Assembly (NCBI RefSeq): GCF_026410385.1
Contig: NZ_JAPMLT010000003.1
Coordinates: 310,001 to 374,000, forward strand
Direction of reading: 5' to 3'
Length of the DNA: 64,000 nucleotides
DNA from: Tumebacillus lacus
Lineage (GTDB): Bacteria > Bacillota > Bacilli > Tumebacillales > Tumebacillaceae
In this document: piece by piece, positions 8,039 through 58,387 of the stretch
How the letters are laid out: each line of letters opens with the position of its first letter
How positions within the stretch are numbered: the first letter of the stretch is position 1
The notes under the pieces: generated by a model
Databases searched by the model: none
What the model was told of the DNA's origin: nothing
The model's input: the letters and a program-made list of their open reading frames with translations, nothing else
Program-made: the position numbers and the translations under genes

Positions 8039-9665
8039 GCACGGCACCTTCCTCCCGTTCGCGCACCCGGCGCTTGTACTCATACGCCAGCGGCTCGTTC
8101 AGCGACGCGTGGCGCAACAGGTCCGGCCGGGCAAACAACTCCTGCGGCTGCCCGTCAAAGAGCAGCCCGCCCTCGGCAAACACCAACACCCTCGTCGCAT
8201 ACGCTGCCACGATCTCCATGTCATGCGTCGCCATCAGGATCGTCGTGCCCTGCCCGTTGCGCTCGGCGAGGCGCTGGAGCAGTTCTTCCGTCGTCGCCGC
8301 ATCCTGCCCGAACGTCGGCTCGTCGAGGAGGAGCAACTCCTGATTTTTCAAGAGCATCCCGGCGACGCTCAGCCGCCGCTTTTGCCCCTGAGACAGCGTG
8401 AACGGGTTTTTGCCGCGCAACTCCTCAAGGCGGAAATCGACCAGCAACCGCTCCGTCTCCGCCTGCACCTGCTCCTGCGGCCATCCGGCGAGCTTGCCGC
8501 CAAATGCGACCTCCTCATAGACCGTGTCGGCGATAAACTGATGCTCCGGGTTTTGAAACACAAATCCGACCGCGTCATACAACGCTTCTGATTTGTAGCT
8601 CTTCAGTTCCTTTTTCTTCCACAAGACCTTGCCTTCCGTCAACTCGTGCAGACCGCCGACCGCCTTCAGGAACGTGCTCTTGCCCGCTCCGTTCGCGCCG
8701 ACGACCGCGACCCACTCGCCCGGCCGCACCTCGACGTCCACATCCGACCAGACCCGCAGGCCGCTGCGGTACGTCAGCCCGCCGCCCTGCACAGCCAGCA
8801 GCGGTGCATCCGCTTTTCGAACCGCCTGCTCCATCTGCGTCTCGACCGCCCGCTGCTCAAAGCGGGCCGCCTGCTGAGTCAACGAAGCACCCAGTTCATG
8901 GCCCGGAAGCAACAGCTCCGGCCACGTCACCGGCCACAGGCGCGGCGTCCAGATCCCGTACCGCTTGATCGCATCGGCGTGATCGCGCAGCACATCCTCC
9001 GGTCGCCCTTCACCTTCGATCCTCCCCTGCGATCCGAACAGCAGCACCCGGTCGACCGCTTCCATCGCACCGTCCAGTTTATGCTCGATCAGCACAAGCG
9101 TCTTTTTGCCATGCAGGCGGCGGATGTCCTCCAGCACATAACGCGTGTTCTCCGGGTCAAGCTGCGCCGTCGGCTCGTCAAAAAACAGCACATCCGGCTC
9201 CAAAGCCAACAGACACGCCAAAGCCAATCGCTGCTTCAACCCGCCCGACAGCTCATTGATCCTGCGGCAAAGCGGCACATCCAACCGCACTTCCTTCATC
9301 AAGGCCTCGATTCGTCCGCGCATCTCGGCAGGCGGCACCATGCGATTTTCCAAGGAGAACGCGATCTCGTCCTCCACCGTCATCATGCAAAACTGCGCAT
9401 CCGGGTCTTGGAACATCACCCCGACCCGGTCCGGCCGGTAGACCGTCCCTTTCATCCACGCATCGACCGAGCGCGGGATGATCCCGGACAGCACCAGAGC
9501 CAGCGTGCTTTTGCCGCTGCCGCTCGGGCCGAGCAGGAGCACGCTTTCCTTTTCTTCGATCGAAACACTCATCTCGCTCAGGGCAGGCGTTTCCCGGTCA
9601 AAAAATTGCACAGACACCCCTTCACAGCCGAGAAAGGGTGTCTTGTTGAGGTGCGTATGGTTCAT
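8031..9665 (-). CDS. ykoD: Fused double ABC ATPase of an ECF transporter (YkoD-like)
   Basis: 544 residues containing two complete ABC domains. The first has Walker A GPSGSGKST (about 46-54), signature ELSGGLKQR and Walker B VLFFDEPTAQLDP. The second has Walker A GANGAGKST (about 325), signature TLSQGQKRR and Walker B LLLLDEPTFGQD. Both are intact, so both should hydrolyse ATP. A single fused ATPase is the YkoD arrangement; most ECF systems use two separate genes. The start overlaps the ykoE stop (TAATG). It powers uptake by YkoE/YkoC. Confidence 0.9.
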   Translation of the reverse strand: MNHTHLNKTPFLGCEGVSVQFFDRETPALSEMSVSIEEKESVLLLGPSGSGKSTLALVLSGIIPRSVDAWMKGTVYRPDRVGVMFQDPDAQFCMMTVEDEIAFSLENRMVPPAEMRGRIEALMKEVRLDVPLCRRINELSGGLKQRLALACLLALEPDVLFFDEPTAQLDPENTRYVLEDIRRLHGKKTLVLIEHKLDGAMEAVDRVLLFGSQGRIEGEGRPEDVLRDHADAIKRYGIWTPRLWPVTWPELLLPGHELGASLTQQAARFEQRAVETQMEQAVRKADAPLLAVQGGGLTYRSGLRVWSDVDVEVRPGEWVAVVGANGAGKSTFLKAVGGLHELTEGKVLWKKKELKSYKSEALYDAVGFVFQNPEHQFIADTVYEEVAFGGKLAGWPQEQVQAETERLLVDFRLEELRGKNPFTLSQGQKRRLSVAGMLLKNQELLLLDEPTFGQDAATTEELLQRLAERNGQGTTILMATHDMEIVAAYATRVLVFAEGGLLFDGQPQELFARPDLLRHASLNEPLAYEYKRRVREREEGAVHV

Positions 9666-10246
9666 TAGAACGGCCGTTCCATCTTTTTCTTGACGATCGC
9701 GTAGGAGTTCAGCACGCCGGTCTTGACCAGCAGACCTGCCACCACTTGTGCGAGGAGACCTGCAAAGATCGCCCCGGACAGCACGCGCAGCACGATCTTC
9801 GCCGTCATCGCCGTCGTGTTCAGCTCCGCCAGGTAGCCGGAGAACGCGTCGTACACAAGGCTCGCCGCACCTGCAGCCGCGCCTGCCAGCAGCAGCACCG
9901 GGAGCTTGAAGTTTTTGTAGCCGAAGATCAGGAAGATCACCTCGGTCGCCGCGCCTTGCGCCAGACCGTAGAGCAGCGTCGACAGCCCGTACGGACCGCC
10001 CATCAAAAGCTCCCCGGAAGCGGCCGCCACTTCAGCCAGCAGCGCGATGCCCGGCTTTTGCACGATCAGCGCGGCCAGCACGCCCGCAAAGAACCAGACC
10101 CCATAAATCGAATCGCCCGCGCCCGGAAGCGCTGCGTCCAAGCCCATAAACAGCGGAGCCCACCCCACGTAGAGAAAACCACAGATGATCGCCAGGATCA
10201 CCGTGATCATCACTTCGCGGAAGTTTACGACATTGCCAGTTTTCAT
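9665..10246 (-). CDS. ykoE: ECF transporter S component, thiamine/HMP-related (YkoE-like)
   Basis: 193 residues, almost all hydrophobic, with about six membrane spans. The N-terminus (FREVMITVILAIICGFLYVGW) and GELLMGGPYGLSTLLYGLAQG are characteristic of YkoE. In B. subtilis the YkoEDC system is assigned to uptake of the thiamine precursor hydroxymethylpyrimidine or thiamine. The TPP riboswitch directly upstream supports this. It is the first gene of the operon, followed by ykoD and ykoC with overlapping ends. No ykoF is present. Confidence 0.88.
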   Translation of the reverse strand: MKTGNVVNFREVMITVILAIICGFLYVGWAPLFMGLDAALPGAGDSIYGVWFFAGVLAALIVQKPGIALLAEVAAASGELLMGGPYGLSTLLYGLAQGAATEVIFLIFGYKNFKLPVLLLAGAAAGAASLVYDAFSGYLAELNTTAMTAKIVLRVLSGAIFAGLLAQVVAGLLVKTGVLNSYAIVKKKMERPF

Positions 10247-10320: not shown

Positions 10321-10364
10321 ACGAGACAGATCGAGGCTGAGTGTTTCAGTACTTTTGCTCAGTC

Positions 10365-10462
10365 AGGTCACTTCCTCACGCCGGTATTACCCAGGATCGA
10401 GTTCGGAGGGTTAGCGTTCTTTACGCTTCTCAGCCTGCAAAAGGCACCCCTAGCGACTGCGG
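10365..10462 (-). ncRNA. TPP riboswitch (THI element)
   Basis: The minus strand carries the conserved THI-box parts in order: CTAGGGGTGCC, then GGCTGAGA, ACCCTCCGAA, and CTGGGTAATACCGGCGTGAGGAAG. These are the pyrimidine- and pyrophosphate-sensing arms of the TPP aptamer. It precedes ykoEDC and is followed by a terminator, so it should turn the operon off when thiamine pyrophosphate is plentiful. Confidence 0.92.
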
Positions 10463-10522: not shown

Positions 10523-10566
10523 AAAAAAAGCCCGGCCTGCGTCCTGCGCATAACCGGACTTTTTTT
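10523..10566 (-). terminator. Terminator of the 9-codon peptide gene
   Basis: The minus-strand RNA forms AAAAAAAGUCCGG / CCGGGCUUUUUUU with a U-G wobble. On the plus strand the same position is a C-A mismatch, so it is built for minus-strand transcripts. Its AAAAAGTCCGGT arm is shared with the terminator at 10726-10765. Confidence 0.75.
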
Positions 10567-10585: not shown

Positions 10586-10615
10586 TTACCAGATGATGAG
10601 GATGTTGCGCTCCAT
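10586..10615 (-). CDS. Nine-residue peptide gene MERNILIIW
   Basis: A complete mini-gene on the minus strand. TTGTAA-N17-TAAAAT promoter (10638-10666) is followed by a full AAGGAGGTGA ribosome-binding site 6 bases before the ATG, nine codons, TAA, then an intrinsic terminator. The product ends in IIW, as does the 34-residue PIIW-repeat peptide encoded 165 bases upstream. Its promoter and terminator are diverged copies of those flanking the radical-SAM/PIIW unit. It could be a minimal precursor for the radical-SAM enzyme, a short hydrophobic signal peptide, or a shrunken duplicate. The perfect ribosome-binding site argues that it is translated. Confidence 0.6.
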   Translation of the reverse strand: MERNILIIW

Positions 10616-10637
10616 GTCTGCTCACCTCCTTGACTTC

Positions 10638-10699
10638 ATTTTATCTGATTATTCTTTTTATTACAACTATTGACTTTATTTCTGAAATGAATATAATAG
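10638..10699. promoter_or_regulatory. Back-to-back promoter block A
   Basis: Minus strand: TTGTAA (10666-10661), 17 bases, TAAAAT (10643-10638), driving the 9-codon gene. Plus strand: TTGACT (10670-10675), 16 bases, TATAAT (10692-10697), which reads only about 30 bases before meeting the terminator at 10726. The block is a diverged copy of 12488-12558 upstream of the radical-SAM gene. Confidence 0.6.
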
Positions 10700-10725
10700 C
10701 AAACAATACATTAATGGATAAAATA

Positions 10726-10765
10726 AAAAGTCCGGTCAGCGTCAGACGCGTGGACCGGACTTTTT
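10726..10765. terminator. Terminator after the PIIW-repeat peptide gene
   Basis: A 12-base perfect stem (AAAAGTCCGGTC / GACCGGACTTTT) encloses a second stem GCGTC/GACGC. It works on both strands and ends the radical-SAM/peptide transcript. Confidence 0.85.
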
Positions 10766-10779
10766 GGGTCATCGGGTGA

Positions 10780-10884
10780 TTACCAGATGATCGGAGCGAC
10801 TTCGTTGTTCCAGATGATCGGCTCAGCCGCGTTTTTCCAGATGATCGGCTCAACGTTTTTCCAGATGATCGGTTGGTTTTCCAT
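10780..10884 (-). CDS. 34-residue peptide with four PIIW repeats; candidate RiPP precursor
   Basis: The product begins MENQ and contains four PIIW blocks separated by KNVE, KNAAE and NNEVA; the last block is followed directly by the stop. At DNA level the four repeats are identical 12-mers (ccgatcatctgg). AGGGGATG precedes the ATG at a normal distance. The gene lies 71 bases after the radical-SAM gene with no terminator between, so the two share a transcript that ends at 10726-10765. Repeated short cores next to a radical-SAM enzyme and an exporter are the hallmark of ribosomally made, post-translationally modified peptides. Trp or Ile in PIIW would be the modification site. I know no described family with this core. 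Confidence 0.75.
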   Translation of the reverse strand: MENQPIIWKNVEPIIWKNAAEPIIWNNEVAPIIW

Positions 10885-10955
10885 GTTTGTCATCCCCTGT
10901 TCTCGATTTTTTATATGGAAGCGGTCAAGCCGCAGGTCCATCAGTTAGGAAGATC

Positions 10956-12398
10956 TTACGCGTTTTCCAAAACGACCGTCGGCTTCTCGTCGAACGGAAG
11001 CAGCAGCTCCGTCCGATCCGGCTCTCGGCCGTCTTCGATGCGGCCCTCGATGTAGTTCGAGATGATCGTGCGGCCTTTTTCCGGCATCAGGTAGTAGATG
11101 AGGTTGACGTAGAACAGCCAGCCGGGCTGTGCCAGCAGATAGCGGTCCTCGTACTCCACCACAAACCCGCCTGCCACCACTTCGTCAAACCGCTGCTTGA
11201 CCTCGGCCGGGATGCGATCCCAGTCGATGCGGTCTTTTTCCAGCGAGCCGCGGTACGGGAAGTAGATGATGCCTTTTTCCGGGCATGCCTCGATCTCGTA
11301 CGCCTGCGTCGGCAGTTCACCTTCGTCCAGCGCTTTGAAATACTGGTCGAGGTTGGCCACGTTGGTCATCAGGAAGCCCTGCGCCTGAGTGTAAGCGCCG
11401 GCGCCGAATGCGATGACTTCGTCTTCTTCATGGCCGTACGCAACATCATGATACATGAACACCGGGTCCGGATGAATCGAGACGCGACCGGTGACTTCGG
11501 CCGGTTTTTTGGTGTAGGCATAGCCGTTGATCGCGACGTAGCCCCGAGCACGCATGTACTCGTCGAGGAACATCCGGTGCGAGACCTTGGTCATCATCGA
11601 GAGCTGCGGCAGCGATTGCTTGCGCATCTCGCGGTGCATCTTCATCGACGCCGCCATGTTGTTCAGCGGGTAGAAGTCGACCGTCTTGGTCCCGAGCGCC
11701 ATCGCATGTTCCGCGTCTTCGATCAGTTCTTCGACCGTCTGCCCGGCCATGCCGTAGATCATGTCCACGTTGACGTAGCCGATGATCTCTTTGCCCCACT
11801 CGGCCACCTGGCGCACTTGCTCCACCGTCGACGTGATGTTGAAGATCTCGCGGTATTTCGGGTTGAAGGTTTGAATGCCGAAGGAGATCCGGTTGACCCC
11901 GATCGACTTCATCGCTTCGAGTTTCTCGCGGGTCACGCTCTTGACTTCCAACTCGAACGTGAACTCTTTGAGCTGTGAGAGATCGAAGTGGCGATGGATC
12001 GCTTCGCCGAGGCGCTTGATCTGGTCGGCGGTCATGACCGACGGCGTGCCGCCGCCGATGAAGATCACCTCGACCGGGACTTTCCCGACCGCCGGATACT
12101 GGCTCTTCAACTCGATCTCTTTCAGTAAAGCGTTTACATATCGTTCTACCGCATCAGACTCCGAATGGTTGGCGATCCGGTAGAAGGGGCAAAACGTACA
12201 GATCGTGTCACAGAACGGCACGTGGAAGTACAGAGCGCGGCGGCGGCTTCCCGGCACATTTTCCAACCGAACCAGCGCTTCGTGAGCGGATACTTTCGGG
12301 CTATCCGCTGTCAAGAATGGATAGTACCAGTTGTAAACCGGCAGCTGACGGTCGAACTTGAGCAGGGTATCGTGTTCGTTGATCTTCAAATCAAACAT
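10956..12398 (-). CDS. HemN/HemW-like radical SAM protein, candidate PIIW-peptide-modifying enzyme
   Basis: 480 residues. The radical SAM cluster motif CDTICTFC (Cys 63, 67, 70) sits in YFHVPFCDTICTFCPFYR, the arrangement of the coproporphyrinogen-oxidase-like group. FIGGGTPS (about 115) and NRISFGIQTFNPKYREIF are also typical of that group. An unusual N-terminal segment contains VYNWYYPF. HemN-like proteins include porphyrin enzymes, haem chaperones and methyltransferases that act on peptide natural products. No haem-synthesis gene adjoins it. The next gene is the PIIW-repeat peptide and an MFS exporter is divergent, so a peptide-modifying role is inferred. GGGAGG precedes the ATG. Confidence 0.8.
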   Translation of the reverse strand: MFDLKINEHDTLLKFDRQLPVYNWYYPFLTADSPKVSAHEALVRLENVPGSRRRALYFHVPFCDTICTFCPFYRIANHSESDAVERYVNALLKEIELKSQYPAVGKVPVEVIFIGGGTPSVMTADQIKRLGEAIHRHFDLSQLKEFTFELEVKSVTREKLEAMKSIGVNRISFGIQTFNPKYREIFNITSTVEQVRQVAEWGKEIIGYVNVDMIYGMAGQTVEELIEDAEHAMALGTKTVDFYPLNNMAASMKMHREMRKQSLPQLSMMTKVSHRMFLDEYMRARGYVAINGYAYTKKPAEVTGRVSIHPDPVFMYHDVAYGHEEDEVIAFGAGAYTQAQGFLMTNVANLDQYFKALDEGELPTQAYEIEACPEKGIIYFPYRGSLEKDRIDWDRIPAEVKQRFDEVVAGGFVVEYEDRYLLAQPGWLFYVNLIYYLMPEKGRTIISNYIEGRIEDGREPDRTELLLPFDEKPTVVLENA

Positions 12399-12487
12399 GT
12401 TCGTCCTCCCGTTCCAGATGCGGACCGGTGACGCCCGCAGCCGTTGTAATGTTTTATTTTTGCATGATTACTTTCAAGCGTTTCTTG

Positions 12488-12558
12488 TTGACTCAATAGT
12501 ATCTGATAATTCTATGTATTTCAACTATTGACTTTACAGTATCTTTGATTATAATAAT
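12488..12558. promoter_or_regulatory. Back-to-back promoter block B of the radical-SAM/PIIW operon
   Basis: Minus strand: TTGAAA (12524-12519), 17 bases, TACTAT (12501-12496), toward the radical-SAM gene. Plus strand: TTGACT (12528-12533), 16 bases, TATAAT (12550-12555), toward the MFS gene. The two -35 boxes are three bases apart around TCAA-CTA-TTGA, an inverted repeat that could bind a regulator. About 70 bases align with block A (10630-10699). Confidence 0.65.
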
Positions 12559-12658
12559 CAGGCATATTGGGTTAGGGTAATTAATACACAAATGCATAGG
12601 AATTTCACTTCTTTTCGAAAATGTTTTCTTCCTTCCGTTTTGCATGCCTTTTGTCCGA

Positions 12659-12687
12659 TTGACCCTTATGAATTTTCGGAATAAAAT
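12659..12687 (+). promoter_or_regulatory. Promoter of the MFS exporter gene
   Basis: TTGACC (12659-12664), 17-base spacer, TAAAAT (12682-12687), 35 bases before the MFS start codon. Confidence 0.6.
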
Positions 12688-12721
12688 AAACTCTTACAAG
12701 CGAATCATGGAGGTGCACTTG

Positions 12722-14023
12722 ATGAGCAACCAGACTGCGCCGCCTGTCACCTACCGCGCTGTCTTGCAAAACCGCAACTATTTCTGGATGTGGATCGGTC
12801 AAGCGATCTCGCAGATCGGCGATGCGCTCAGCGTCGTGGCGATCCCCTTGCTGGTGTATCAGATCACCGGTTCGGCACTCGACCTGGCGATCTCCTTTAT
12901 GATCACCACGTTGCCTTGGATCTTGATCGGTCCCTTTGCCGGCGTGCTCGTCGACCGGGCCGACCGGCGGACGGTGTTGATCGCAACAGATTTGATTCGT
13001 GTCCTGTTTATGTTGATCATCTTCTTCACCAGCAACATCTACCTGATCTACGTCTTGCTCTTCCTGTCGCAGTGCATGGCGACGATCTTCTCCCCGGCCC
13101 GTTCCGCCGTCATTCCGGAACTGGTGCCGCGCGAGATGTACGTCAAGACGATCGGACTCTCCTATACGACCTTCCAGATCTCGCAGATGATCGGGCCGTT
13201 TCTGGCGGCCGGTCTGGTCGCGCTGGCAGGCGGTGCCCGCACGATCATCCTGCTGGACAGCTTCACCTTCCTCGCCGCGGTGCTCGCCACGCTGATGATC
13301 CGCTTCCCGGACAGTGCTCGCCGCTCGGCCGCCCGATCTGCCGCCTCTTCCGCTGGCAGATCAAACGGCATCGTCACGATCCTGAGCCAGATGAAAGAAG
13401 GAGCGATGACGATCCTCCGCACACCGCTGCTGCGCTTTGCGACGATGATCTCGCTGTTGCGCTACTTGGCACGCACGGTGTTGCTCATGGGCGTGTTGCT
13501 CTATTTGAAAGACGGCCTTGGCATGTCGGCGACGGAGAGCGACTCGCTCTACACGCTCGTCGTCTCGGCCGCCGCTGTCGGCACGGTGCTCGGCACGTTG
13601 TTGATCGGCTGGAAAGAGCGCTCGTGGGAGCGTCGTCTCGTGATCGTCGGCGGAGTGATGCTGCAAGGGCTGTGCTACGTCGGCGTGCTGCTGCACCCGT
13701 CCGCGTGGTGGCTGATCGCTCTGTTCCTGCTCTCCGGCCTGTTCGAAGCGGGCGCGATCACCCCGGTGTCCGCGCTCTTCGCCGAAGGAACGCCAAACGA
13801 AGTGCGCGGTCGCGTCTACTCGGTGATCAACGCGATCCTCTACGCGTTCTCGCTCCTCACCTACAGTGTCGCAGGTCCCGTCGTCGAAACGGCTGGACCT
13901 GTCGCGCTGATCGCCCTGGGCGGCCTGTTCATGCTGATCGCCGCCCCGCTGATCGCTTGGAGCACCGGAGCGTATCGCCTGTTAAAACCGGACGTGCCGC
14001 AAGGGCACACGCATTCCGCGTGA
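12722..14023 (+). CDS. MFS transporter, candidate exporter for the PIIW system
   Basis: 433 residues with about 12 membrane spans. It has the drug-exporter-type loop DRADRRT (about residue 75) and GGARTIILLDSFTFLAAV, typical of the Bacilli MFS group related to macrolide-type exporters. The ATG at 12722 has GGAGGTG 7 bases upstream; an earlier start at 12644 has no ribosome-binding site and would precede the promoter. It is transcribed divergently from the radical-SAM/PIIW operon. A role in exporting the modified peptide is inferred from position only; a multidrug efflux role is the alternative. Confidence 0.8.
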   Translation: MSNQTAPPVTYRAVLQNRNYFWMWIGQAISQIGDALSVVAIPLLVYQITGSALDLAISFMITTLPWILIGPFAGVLVDRADRRTVLIATDLIRVLFMLIIFFTSNIYLIYVLLFLSQCMATIFSPARSAVIPELVPREMYVKTIGLSYTTFQISQMIGPFLAAGLVALAGGARTIILLDSFTFLAAVLATLMIRFPDSARRSAARSAASSAGRSNGIVTILSQMKEGAMTILRTPLLRFATMISLLRYLARTVLLMGVLLYLKDGLGMSATESDSLYTLVVSAAAVGTVLGTLLIGWKERSWERRLVIVGGVMLQGLCYVGVLLHPSAWWLIALFLLSGLFEAGAITPVSALFAEGTPNEVRGRVYSVINAILYAFSLLTYSVAGPVVETAGPVALIALGGLFMLIAAPLIAWSTGAYRLLKPDVPQGHTHSA

Positions 14024-19053: not shown

Positions 19054-20274
19054 TCAGGCTTCCGGCAGGAGCAGCGTCTCGACGGCCCGTTGCGGAGAGA
19101 CCTGGGGAAGCACGTACAGCGTGTAGGTGATGTTTTTGTCGAAAGTGATTTGCGGGATCTTGATCAGGGTCTCTTTTTTGCCGGCTTGGCGCAGTTCCAA
19201 GTCGCGCACGCCCGGGGTCACCTGCAGGTAAGGCGAGATCTTGCGGAATCGCAAGTCGCCGATCAGGATCTTGCCGGAGGGAAGCGTCACATCCACAGAC
19301 GGCGCGTTCGTGGCGAGATGGACGATCTTCAAGCGGGCAAAGCCGGGTTTGCCGCCACGACGGCTGTCTTCCACCACCACCGGCTTGACATCTTCGGGGA
19401 TGCCGGAGACAGCGACCGTGTAGTGGCGGTTCGGCAGGAGTTTGACCTCCTGATCGATGACGGCGCCGGTCGTCTGTCCCGTGCGGAACAGTTGGACACG
19501 GTGCGCGCCCGGTCCAAGCGCCAGATACGGGCTGATCCCTTCATAGCCGACGTCGGTCGCCACTTTGCGACCGTCGACGACCACATCGACGTTCGGCACG
19601 CCCGGTGCTGCATGCAAAAATCGAACCTGCGCCTGCGCCGCCTTCTGAGGGCGAATGTCCGTCTCCGTCTGCCCATCGTCCGTAATACCCGCCACAGCCG
19701 TTTCTTCCGCACGCGCCGGCGGCACCAACTCGGTCGGTTGCGGCAAGCCCGTTCCCGGCTGCATCGACTGACTCATGCCCCCGCTCAGATCCACCGCCTC
19801 GTCCGCCGTCTTCGGCATCATGCCCGGCTGCATCGTCCCCGGCTGCATCGTGCCCGGCTGCATCGTGCCCGGCTGCATCGTGCCCGACGGCATCATGCCC
19901 GGTTGCATCGTACCCGGTTGCATCGTACCCGACGGCATCATGCCCGGCTGCATTGTCCCTGACGGCATCAGGCCCGGTTGCATGGTGCCCGTCATCTGCT
20001 GGAACTGATCCTGCAGTTCCGGCGGCAGGGCGATCTCCATCGTGCTCGGCAACTTGCCGTCCGCCTGCAACGCCTGTTGCAATTGCTCCAGAATGTATTG
20101 GCCCAGGCTCTGTTGATGGCGCATCAGTTCCACATCCTGCCCTTGCTCCCGGATGATCTGATAGGCCTCCTGCATAAACTCATGTTGGTTCTGCTGGCTT
20201 TCGTGAATGAGTTCGGCCAATTTCTCCATCTCACGCATCAGCAGTTCATATGCGACCTGTCGTTCGTCCTTCAA
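19054..20274 (-). CDS. DUF4397 protein with a Met-Pro-Gly tandem-repeat linker
   Basis: 406 residues. About 1-90 are helical and Gln/Glu-rich, a probable coiled coil. About 95-155 are a low-complexity tract of TMQPG and MMPSG units. About 210-400 hold two DUF4397 beta domains (VRFLHAAPGVPNVDVVVDG and LKIVHLATNAPSVDVTLPSG). There is no signal peptide or membrane span, although DUF4397 proteins are often exported. DNA for the tract is made of near-identical 15-base units. In spore formers, proteins with this style of linker are sometimes spore-surface proteins, but that is only a suggestion. Confidence 0.8.
   Translation of the reverse strand: MKDERQVAYELLMREMEKLAELIHESQQNQHEFMQEAYQIIREQGQDVELMRHQQSLGQYILEQLQQALQADGKLPSTMEIALPPELQDQFQQMTGTMQPGLMPSGTMQPGMMPSGTMQPGTMQPGMMPSGTMQPGTMQPGTMQPGTMQPGMMPKTADEAVDLSGGMSQSMQPGTGLPQPTELVPPARAEETAVAGITDDGQTETDIRPQKAAQAQVRFLHAAPGVPNVDVVVDGRKVATDVGYEGISPYLALGPGAHRVQLFRTGQTTGAVIDQEVKLLPNRHYTVAVSGIPEDVKPVVVEDSRRGGKPGFARLKIVHLATNAPSVDVTLPSGKILIGDLRFRKISPYLQVTPGVRDLELRQAGKKETLIKIPQITFDKNITYTLYVLPQVSPQRAVETLLLPEA
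19805..19990. repeat. Tandem 15-base repeats coding TMQPG/MMPSG
   Basis: Units of the form catcgtgcccggctg and close variants are repeated about 12 times within the DUF4397 gene. All changes keep the frame. The copy number is likely to vary between strains. Confidence 0.85.
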
Positions 20275-57122: not shown

Positions 57123-58387
57123 CCGCCGCTCCCCTCCCGTCGCATACCGACATTCATCCCGTCGTTCATCCCGTCGTTCATCCCGTCGTTCATCCCGTCG
57201 TTCATCCCGTCGTTCATCCCGTCGCTGCCCGACAGCTGCCACGTATCGTCTCCGAGCGCTTCGCCGTAGATGTGCTGCATCTGCCGCAGCACAAAGCCGA
57301 GATCATAGCGGCGAGCCTGCCGCTGCGCCTGTTTGCCGAGCCGTTCGCGCAGCAGCGGCGAGTCGCAGAGCCTGATCAGCGCGCGCGCCGTCGCTTCCCC
57401 GTCGCCGACCGGCACCAGGAGGCCGTTCTCTCCGTGGCAGACCAGGTCGCGGTTGCCGCGCACGTCGGTGGCGACGACCGGCTTCCCGGCCGCCATCGCT
57501 TCCATCAGACAGCACGGCAGCCCTTCCCGCTTCGACACCAGCGCAGCCGCATCGGAGGCGGCGAGCAGTTCGGCGATGTCCCGGCGAAATCCGAGAAATC
57601 GCACATACCCTTCCAGCCCCCTCGCCGCCACTTCCGCCCGCAGCCGCTCCTCCGCCTCGCCGATGCCCGCCAGCAACAGCGTCACCTGCCGCCCTTCCAA
57701 AGCCATGCGGTGGACCGCGTCAAGGAGTTGGGTCTGATTTTTGTTGGCGTTCAATTCCGCCACGCACAGAATGACAAATTCATACTGCGGCACCCCGAGT
57801 TGCTCGCGCTTCATCAGGCGGTGCCAGACCGGCTCCGGCAGTTGAAACTCCTGCGTCTCGATGCCGACGCCCGGCACATAGTCGATCTTGCCCCGCACGG
57901 GCAACGAGTCGGCACGCTGCGCATCTTCCTGATTGATCGTGATCAGCCGGTCGGTGCAGCGGGCCATCCACCACTCCACCGGGTAATAGAGCAGCCAGTT
58001 CAGCATCGGTGCCCCTTTAAAAAAATGAAACCCGTGCGCCGTGTACAGCACGGCCGGCACCTTGGCCCGCTTGGCTGCCAACCGTCCCAGGATGCTGCCG
58101 ACCGGCGTGTGCACGTGCACGAGTTGAAACATCTCCTGCCGAAACGAATCGGTCAACTCCCGCAGCGCCTGGAGATTTTCCCGCTTGAACGGACTGCGCT
58201 GAAAGGAGATGTCGTGGCAGATCACCCCTTGCGCAGCCACTCCTGCATAGCCGTGATCCGGGCGCGCGTAGGCGTGCACTTCGATGCCGCGCTCCTGCAA
58301 CAAACGCATCTGCGGCACCGTGAACGCCTCAAAAAAGCGGTACCCCGTCGCGACAAACGCCGCCTTGCGTTTTCCCATATTGCTCAT
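57119..58387 (-). CDS. Family 4 glycosyltransferase with a DGMN-repeat tail
   Basis: About 422 residues. GT4 features are VHVHTPVGSILGRLAAKRAKVPAVLYTAHGFHFFKG in the N-terminal half and the donor-binding SKREGLPCCLMEAMAAGKPVVATDVRGNRDLV (E-x7-E) in the C-terminal half. It resembles EpsD/EpsF-type enzymes. The last 25 residues are six DGMN units coded by 12-base repeats. The ATG at 58387 follows GGGGGAGG. Confidence 0.9.
   Translation of the reverse strand: MSNMGKRKAAFVATGYRFFEAFTVPQMRLLQERGIEVHAYARPDHGYAGVAAQGVICHDISFQRSPFKRENLQALRELTDSFRQEMFQLVHVHTPVGSILGRLAAKRAKVPAVLYTAHGFHFFKGAPMLNWLLYYPVEWWMARCTDRLITINQEDAQRADSLPVRGKIDYVPGVGIETQEFQLPEPVWHRLMKREQLGVPQYEFVILCVAELNANKNQTQLLDAVHRMALEGRQVTLLLAGIGEAEERLRAEVAARGLEGYVRFLGFRRDIAELLAASDAAALVSKREGLPCCLMEAMAAGKPVVATDVRGNRDLVCHGENGLLVPVGDGEATARALIRLCDSPLLRERLGKQAQRQARRYDLGFVLRQMQHIYGEALGDDTWQLSGSDGMNDGMNDGMNDGMNDGMNDGMNVGMRREGSGG
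57151..57222. repeat. Six 12-base tandem repeats at the 3' end of a glycosyltransferase gene
   Basis: Unit cgttcatcccgt (first copy cattcatcccgt) repeated six times. It encodes DGMN on the minus strand and keeps the frame. Changes in copy number would lengthen the tail by four residues each. Confidence 0.92.

Follow-up and report, generated by a model that had tools for sequence, protein, structure and literature searches.

A stretch of 64,000 nucleotides from Tumebacillus lacus (NCBI RefSeq assembly GCF_026410385.1, contig NZ_JAPMLT010000003.1, positions 310,001 to 374,000; hereafter the window) encodes a HemN-like radical S-adenosylmethionine (SAM) enzyme together with two tiny genes for peptides that end in tryptophan and, divergently, an exporter of the major facilitator superfamily (MFS). 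We propose from sequence comparisons that these genes form a minimal cassette of the type that yields ribosomally synthesised and post-translationally modified peptides (RiPPs), in which a two-SAM, HemN-like enzyme would modify the Trp of the tiny peptides and the MFS protein would export the product; we put the probability of this reading at roughly 0.7. Nearly all relatives of the enzyme adjoin tiny Trp peptides, and the cassette would therefore represent an undescribed kind of peptide-modifying system.

Two tiny genes for tryptophan-ending peptides accompany the radical-SAM gene

The initial annotation described a 34-codon gene with four PIIW blocks running up to its stop codon, encoded by identical 12-base repeats, directly behind a HemN-like radical-SAM gene on the same transcript and opposite an MFS exporter gene, and each part of this description holds. 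The 12-mer CCGATCATCTGG recurs with spacings of 27, 27 and 24, and its four exact copies in the 64 kb all fall within the 34-codon open reading frame (ORF), with 0.01 copies expected by chance in the window and no shuffle yielding four. The 71-nt gap between the radical-SAM stop codon and the ORF holds no terminator, and the MFS gene is read divergently from the plus strand (Table 1).

The locus also holds a second tiny gene, absent from the initial annotation, which encodes the peptide MERNILIIW behind a perfect ribosome site and is flanked by a promoter and a terminator-like hairpin of its own. A 33-base block in which a few positions are free was found, at up to three mismatches, at exactly two places in the 4.18-Mb genome (a control pattern was found at none), and because it occurs genome-wide only ahead of MERNILIIW and of the radical-SAM gene, MERNILIIW very likely belongs to one regulated unit with the enzyme. 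When the form Shine-Dalgarno–ATG–..IIW–stop was searched for across the genome, MERNILIIW was the sole match, and no further IIW mini-genes were found elsewhere in the genome.

Tryptophan peptides adjoin nearly all relatives of the enzyme

We placed the window enzyme in a tree with 25 relatives, 12 of the 26 family members falling into clade 1 and 14 into clade 2. The family forms a clade of its own (support 100/100) with two subclades (99/98 and 96/95). Clade 1 comprises the window enzyme and those of other Tumebacillus, Paenibacillus, Ktedonosporobacter, Microseira and plasmids of Alicyclobacillus, Glaesserella and Xenorhabdus; the 14 enzymes of clade 2, from 11 loci, are 32–36% identical to the window enzyme. 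The T. lacus genome itself holds three family members, the window enzyme and paralogues 60% and 36% identical to it, in addition to two ordinary HemN/HemW-type genes. The family was found in 11 of 400 Bacilli sampled and, with the seed genome included in each count, in 1 of 47 genomes of Ktedonosporobacter’s class, 1 of 194 of Microseira’s class, 1 of 350 Paenibacillaceae, 1 of 369 of the class of a gammaproteobacterial metagenome-assembled genome (MAG) and 1 of 399 of the window’s phylum. It is thus rare and patchy and partly plasmid-borne, as expected of an accessory, mobile trait. The viral contigs searched gave no relative, and the phages searched nothing beyond a weak, partial HemN-type match. 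In the E. coli genomes searched, the Klebsiella query met with nothing but short matches that cover about 3% of it, none spanning the cluster.

A peptide ending exactly in Trp lies near 11 of the 12 clade-1 enzymes on the tree, with C-termini such as DIVWDIVW, DSIW, VSEW, VSQW and NVAW. The single exception is the Klebsiella copy, which is broken up by insertion sequences and near which no peptide was found. Two of the 11 cases are weaker: in Microseira the Trp ends a 151-residue lipocalin-like protein, and one Ktedonosporobacter copy has lanthipeptide precursors. Across clade 1, on at least four different scaffolds, no residue other than the final Trp is constant in both identity and position.

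One clade-1 arrangement, type A, is found in Tumebacillus (including the second locus of this genome) and Paenibacillus xylanexedens, with family enzymes 54–60% identical to that of the window. Type-A clusters contain two B12 (cobalamin) radical-SAM genes, the family enzyme, an OppA-like binding protein, a 50–54-residue peptide whose N-terminal half is acidic and which ends in R[VL][VL]SEW, and an MFS gene. The window peptides have four to five residues ahead of the motif. Between two type-A loci (L031 and L042) the peptide cores differ by 11 synonymous changes and one non-synonymous change in 18 codons, and two other between-genus pairs show 10–11 synonymous versus 5 non-synonymous changes. 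Across the type-A loci (L031, L033, L036 and L042), one B12 radical-SAM enzyme is ApyD-like (268 bits, under the 750-bit ApyD cut-off) and the other is weakly similar to a Trp 2-C-methyltransferase. An ORF near the Paenibacillus enzyme, MDWQGNITPTIW, was dismissed as a precursor candidate on account of its overlap with the upstream B12 radical-SAM gene. The window MFS protein is 42–50% identical to the MFS proteins of type A, 35% to that of Ktedonosporobacter and 22–31% to the other MFS proteins compared.

The remaining clade-1 peptides sit on other scaffolds. In Microseira and the gammaproteobacterial MAG, RAVSQW and RVVSQW end a lipocalin-like protein whose gene adjoins those of a B12-type radical-SAM enzyme and the family enzyme, and in the MAG this reading frame is interrupted; the protein is TIGR03067-like (L045, 3498–3953; L044, 725–1188), a folded domain that seems to take the place of a leader. 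In Ktedonosporobacter, MAPKLGTDSIWTPKLGTDSIW and MTPQPGTVEGW are encoded between the enzyme and MFS genes, and a second enzyme adjoins a class II lanthipeptide operon with LanM and a C39 ATP-binding cassette (ABC) transporter (L073, 184–7498, minus strand), in which two of the three leader-bearing precursors end in Trp. The plasmid copies have MRDIVWDIVW (Alicyclobacillus), MENAIELFVSRKNEEHYDFNNVAW (Glaesserella) and MESAMELFEVDINDCDLQGLCMW (Xenorhabdus). The enterobacterial and Pasteurellaceae plasmid relatives combine the enzyme with an MFS gene (L067, 5031–10033; L068, 1200–4834; L069, 4450–9789); a SAM-decarboxylase-like gene stands beside the enzyme in Glaesserella and Xenorhabdus, and a cytochrome P450 gene in Klebsiella and Glaesserella. 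The Xenorhabdus enzyme (L069, 4977–6386; AP028979.1 TCT1_36270) is annotated as the haem-degradation protein HutW; the tree and an FCPF signature place it in the present family.

Beside all 14 clade-2 enzymes lie ORFs with the motif W-[ILVF]-x-[VL]. Here the Trp is internal, and the tiny ORFs, each preceded by a ribosome site of its own, often stand in tandem: MIKEWLTVVEA twice, MSNEWISVKNEWIAV twice, MKKEWVALKNEWVAL, MSKWISVEPLWIAVEPLWIPIDADTV and others, and, at the third locus of the T. lacus genome, MREWIIVAA and MREWIVVVEN with neighbours. Clade-2 repeats of the form VEPLWI resemble the VEPIIW of the window. In one lineage (L038, L039 and L040) a pair of M16 peptidase genes lies upstream of clade-2 enzymes, where they may be processing proteases or reflect chance synteny.

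The two enzyme clades therefore coincide with two peptide forms, one in which Trp is C-terminal (clade 1) and one with W-[ILVF]-x-[VL] (clade 2). As a control, we collected ORFs of 8–60 codons that start with ATG behind a Shine-Dalgarno sequence from the DNA on either side of 23 ordinary HemN/HemW-type genes in related genomes (138 kb, both strands counted), and none of 65 ended in W or carried [EN]WxxV. The enzyme–peptide association is strong, and with it the association of peptide, enzyme and exporter claimed at the outset is supported; the precursor gene is linked to the tailoring enzyme across relatives, as is general for RiPPs. The tandem duplicated ORFs and the mostly synonymous divergence of the type-A core indicate that the tiny peptides are translated genes under selection. 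This divergence, the enzyme tree, the promoter block confined to this locus and the closeness of the window MFS protein to those of type A agree with the link independently of the peptide counts.

Put to the refuting check named in the initial annotation, homologues with no similar peptide nearby, the claim survives in generalised form, but the PIIW core did not fare as well as the association. A search of the first loci for ORFs of the [ILVFM][ILVFM]W type gave the repeated form in the window only, and it was a looser Trp rule, which arose while the loci were being read, that turned up Trp peptides near nearly all relatives: PIIW is one local version, and what is constant among the relatives is Trp. 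Of the two residues suggested as sites of modification, Ile is accordingly the less likely, because Trp is the constant one.

Sequence features of the HemN-like enzyme

The window enzyme matches a single Pfam domain, Radical_SAM (1.6e-22), with no SPASM domain found. Its top NCBIfam model is HutW/ChuW, a class C methylase model, at 206 bits against a cut-off of 400 bits, which it does not reach, and the same model is the best scorer for all five family members tested. By sequence, its closest solved structures are HemN (1OLT) and NocN (9P2U), the similarity to NocN being confined to the radical-SAM domain; HemN is also the best structural match of the predicted fold, on a weak model with a mean predicted local distance difference test score (pLDDT) of 64.

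The family signature is C[DE]x[ILA]C[TS]FCPFx[RK], against CxxxCxYCDF in the ordinary HemN/HemW-type proteins compared. The window version, CDTICTFCPF, has the CxxxCxxC cluster motif that, along with a HemN-like fold, marks class C enzymes, and it is without the fourth Cys of the HemN motif CxxxCxxCxC that E. coli HemN carries. On this ground, and with other HemN/HemW-type genes in the genome, the enzyme is by sequence not one of haem metabolism.

In NocN, a second SAM is bound by Tyr34, Arg153 and Asp196 (PMC13266988), which correspond to Y57, R170 and D212 of the window enzyme, in line with what is seen in class C enzymes that use two SAM molecules. Y57 and D212 are invariant in 26 of 26 family members, and position 170 is Arg except in four clade-1 plasmid enzymes, where it is His. 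Two further contacts of NocN with the second SAM, SAM(II), are not kept: Tyr96 corresponds to F113, at a variable position, and Ser225 to D241, an invariant Asp. Since the SAM(II) residues shared by HemN and NocN are kept, two-SAM chemistry in this family is plausible. Residues 382–384 are clade-specific, reading YRG or YHG in clade 1 (PY[RH]G) and KxM in clade 2 (PKxM), and this segment may therefore read the C-terminal carboxylate of the substrate in clade 1.

A proposed mechanism and its alternatives

In the mechanism that we favour, one or more tiny ribosomal peptides with Trp would serve as substrates, the HemN-like enzyme, with the two-SAM site of HemN and NocN, would modify their tryptophan(s), and the co-inherited MFS pump would export the modified peptide, whole or in part. 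Four Trp in one chain, together with a separate one-Trp peptide, would raise the yield of product. Cleavage would fall to an unlinked host protease or would not take place, so that the cutting into several products envisaged in the initial annotation is possible. By analogy with NosN and NocN, the reaction could be an attack of a SAM(II) methylene radical on the indole, that is, a one-carbon transfer, an assignment to which we give slightly less than even odds. Side-chain chemistry of this kind is favoured by the repeats in one chain and by the internal Trp of clade 2.

More broadly, we lean towards regarding the family as the basis of a new RiPP class, in which HemN-like enzymes with the signature CxxxC[TS]FCPFx[RK] would act on encoded Trp in peptides down to nine codons by two sub-chemistries. 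Members are scattered patchily among Bacillota, Chloroflexota, Cyanobacteria and Gammaproteobacteria, some of them on plasmids, and the family would have been coupled, as a Trp-tailoring module, to pathways of the lanthipeptide, B12-radical-SAM and P450 kinds.

Several points weigh against this proposal. The window yielded no protease gene, leader or recognition element, as the initial annotation had already noted for protease and recognition-element genes. The peptide forms were defined after inspection, and the W-x-x-V count is not blind because the motif was recognised during the reading of the loci. The AlphaFold model (mean pLDDT 64) is too weak for substrate modelling. Plain indole methylation leaves unexplained why Trp must be exactly C-terminal in clade 1, and the internal position of Trp in clade 2 means that the two clades cannot share a reaction at the C-terminal carboxylate. 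Finally, in type A the two further B12 radical-SAM enzymes could act on the peptide instead.

The strongest alternative is a different reaction on the same peptides. HemN acts on the propionate of a pyrrole, and a C-terminal Trp is chemically similar; by analogy, the enzyme might abstract a beta-hydrogen and oxidatively decarboxylate the C-terminal Trp to a terminal indole-vinyl amide (an indole-enamide), the internal Trp residues of the repeats becoming substrates only after cleavage. The strict C-terminal position of Trp in clade 1 favours this reaction, the clade-1-only residues 382–384 could bind the carboxylate, and HemN is the best structural match. Against it stand the internal Trp of clade 2, the missing fourth Cys of HemN and the preference of all five members tested for a class C methylase model, and we consider decarboxylation possible but less probable than one-carbon transfer.

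It is unlikely, though still worth weighing, that the peptide is a mere scaffold, with the encoded Trp modified while still on the peptide and then released for export as a Trp-derived metabolite, the repeats and tandem mini-genes serving to supply Trp. This would fit the last residue being the sole strict constant of clade 1 on unrelated scaffolds (a nine-residue peptide, a repeat peptide, a 50-residue acidic leader and a 151-residue lipocalin-like domain) and an exporter of the MFS kind used for small molecules rather than a peptidase-ABC transporter. However, within each type the positions preceding Trp are conserved as well (PIIW; R[VAL][VLA]S[EQ]W), a constraint for which a mere Trp donor would have no need, and no peptidase or carboxypeptidase is linked to the genes in the window.

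A role of the unmodified tiny peptides as signals or as small hydrophobic toxins, which the MFS protein would export or which would act at the membrane while the enzyme served some unrelated function, strikes us as rather improbable: hydrophobic peptides of 9–11 residues do resemble signalling peptides, and the promoter block resembles a regulator site, but across phyla, and wherever in the genome the genes lie, the form of the peptide tracks the enzyme tree, and many peptides are encoded in the same operon as the enzyme. A haem or porphyrin enzyme (HemN, HemW or HutW) beside a chance ORF, as suggested by database names such as hutW for the Xenorhabdus copy and by the top NCBIfam match, is rejected on signature, score (half of the HutW cut-off) and tree (a separate, fully supported clade), with other HemN/HemW-like genes in the genome, no haem genes nearby and chance excluded for the repeat.

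Coordinates and neighbouring features

Table 1. Features of the putative cassette, with positions counted from the first nucleotide of the window
Feature	Position	Strand	Details
Terminator-like hairpin after MERNILIIW, ending its transcript before the thiamine pyrophosphate (TPP) riboswitch	10523–10566	-	Sequence
Second tiny gene, 9 codons, MERNILIIW and stop	10586–10615	-	Shine-Dalgarno AAGGAGGT
Promoter/operator block GTCAATAGTTGTAATAAAAAGAATAATCAGATA ahead of MERNILIIW	10642–10674	-	-35 TTGTAA, -10 TAAAAT
Terminator-like hairpin AAAAAGTCCGGTC..GACCGGACTTTTT 3' of the 34-codon gene	10725–10765	-	Stem 10730–10747 and sequence
34-codon precursor-like gene, MENQPIIWKNVEPIIWKNAAEPIIWNNEVAPIIW and stop	10780–10884	-	Shine-Dalgarno AGGGG; 71 nt past the radical-SAM stop
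CCGATCATCTGG (PIIW), four exact copies	10783–10872	-	Copies at 10783, 10810, 10837, 10861; repeat count
HemN-like radical-SAM enzyme gene, 480 residues	10956–12398	-	Pfam Radical_SAM; Shine-Dalgarno GGGAGG; C-x3-C-x2-C at C63, C67, C70
Second copy of the block, ahead of the radical-SAM gene	12500–12532	-	-35 TTGAAA, -10 TACTAT
Divergent sigma-70-like promoter TTGACT-16-TATAAT facing the MFS gene, adjoining the shared block	12528–12555	+	11/12 matches
MFS exporter	12722–14023	+	Likely ATG at 12722 after GGAGGTG; longest frame from 12644; Pfam MFS_1 2.9e-35

A further strong sigma-70-like promoter (11/12 matches; 10670–10697, plus strand) lies within the promoter region of MERNILIIW and points at the 34-codon gene, antisense to it, mirroring the divergent MFS promoter. 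Just downstream of the MERNILIIW terminator is a TPP riboswitch (10356–10461, minus strand), unrelated to the cassette, which precedes a component of an ABC_cobalt-family (thiamine-type) energy-coupling factor (ECF) transporter (9665–10246, minus strand). Outside the locus, short-period tandem repeats occur at 19815–19991 (15-bp unit, 11.8 copies) and 57135–57224 (12-bp unit, 7.7 copies).

Comparison with known systems

Should its chemistry prove new, a RiPP with a HemN-like maturase would justify a new class. A whole enzyme family appears to be dedicated to Trp in peptides that gene finders leave unannotated; the peptide genes are too small for them, and the products are therefore invisible to genome mining. 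With one enzyme and one nine-residue peptide, the system is small enough for direct testing, and its two clades with two peptide forms make it possible to compare what steers a two-SAM radical enzyme towards ring attack, towards decarboxylation or towards some other reaction. Neither the enzyme family nor the type-A peptide tested nor a 132-residue neighbour in Alicyclobacillus is claimed by any NCBIfam model, and in the searchable literature (subscription journals aside) we found no pairing of a HemN-like enzyme with mini-peptides of the C-terminal-Trp or W-x-x-V kind.

Radical-SAM enzymes acting on short peptides with Trp or repeated motifs are known from streptide and other RaS-RiPPs and from TvgA with its TVGG repeats (PMC9062424). 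The present locus resembles these in having short Trp or repeat-motif peptides beside a radical-SAM enzyme. Streptide-type enzymes carry SPASM domains, whereas the window enzyme has the Radical_SAM domain only and groups with HemN. The aminopyruvatide pathway, with the B12 radical-SAM enzyme ApyD, shares an ApyD-like enzyme with the type-A clusters; in contrast, no B12 radical-SAM gene lies next to the window enzyme.

Precursor genes as small as 18 bp, overlooked by gene finders, are known for the biarylitides (PMC13417212). The likeness lies in an extremely small precursor gene adjoining one modifying enzyme; in biarylitides, however, a P450 cross-links a five-residue peptide, whereas here a radical-SAM enzyme is paired with Trp peptides of 9–50 residues, the window precursors having 9 and 34 residues with no P450 among the neighbours scanned. 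Microcin C combines a seven-codon peptide gene with an MFS exporter and in this respect is alike, but its peptide is modified by the adenylating MccB; the window has no heptapeptide, and no MccB-type gene was recognised among the neighbours scanned.

The closest parallels are the class C methylases of thiopeptide pathways, NosN/NocN, TbtI and PbtM2/M3, which, like the window enzyme, have a HemN-like didomain and two-SAM residues and act on ribosomal peptides, as would the candidate described here. To our knowledge, HemN-like enzymes that act on encoded peptides have so far come from thiopeptide pathways, where they act late, on heterocycles. NocN acts on an indole-derived group (PMC13266988; PMC11285071). 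The thiopeptide enzymes differ in acting on thiazoles or indolic acid within large clusters, whereas here the candidate substrate is a Trp peptide of 9–50 residues encoded without azole or dehydration machinery. None of the thiopeptide HemN-like enzymes, the biarylitide mini-genes and microcin C is the same system as the one described here.

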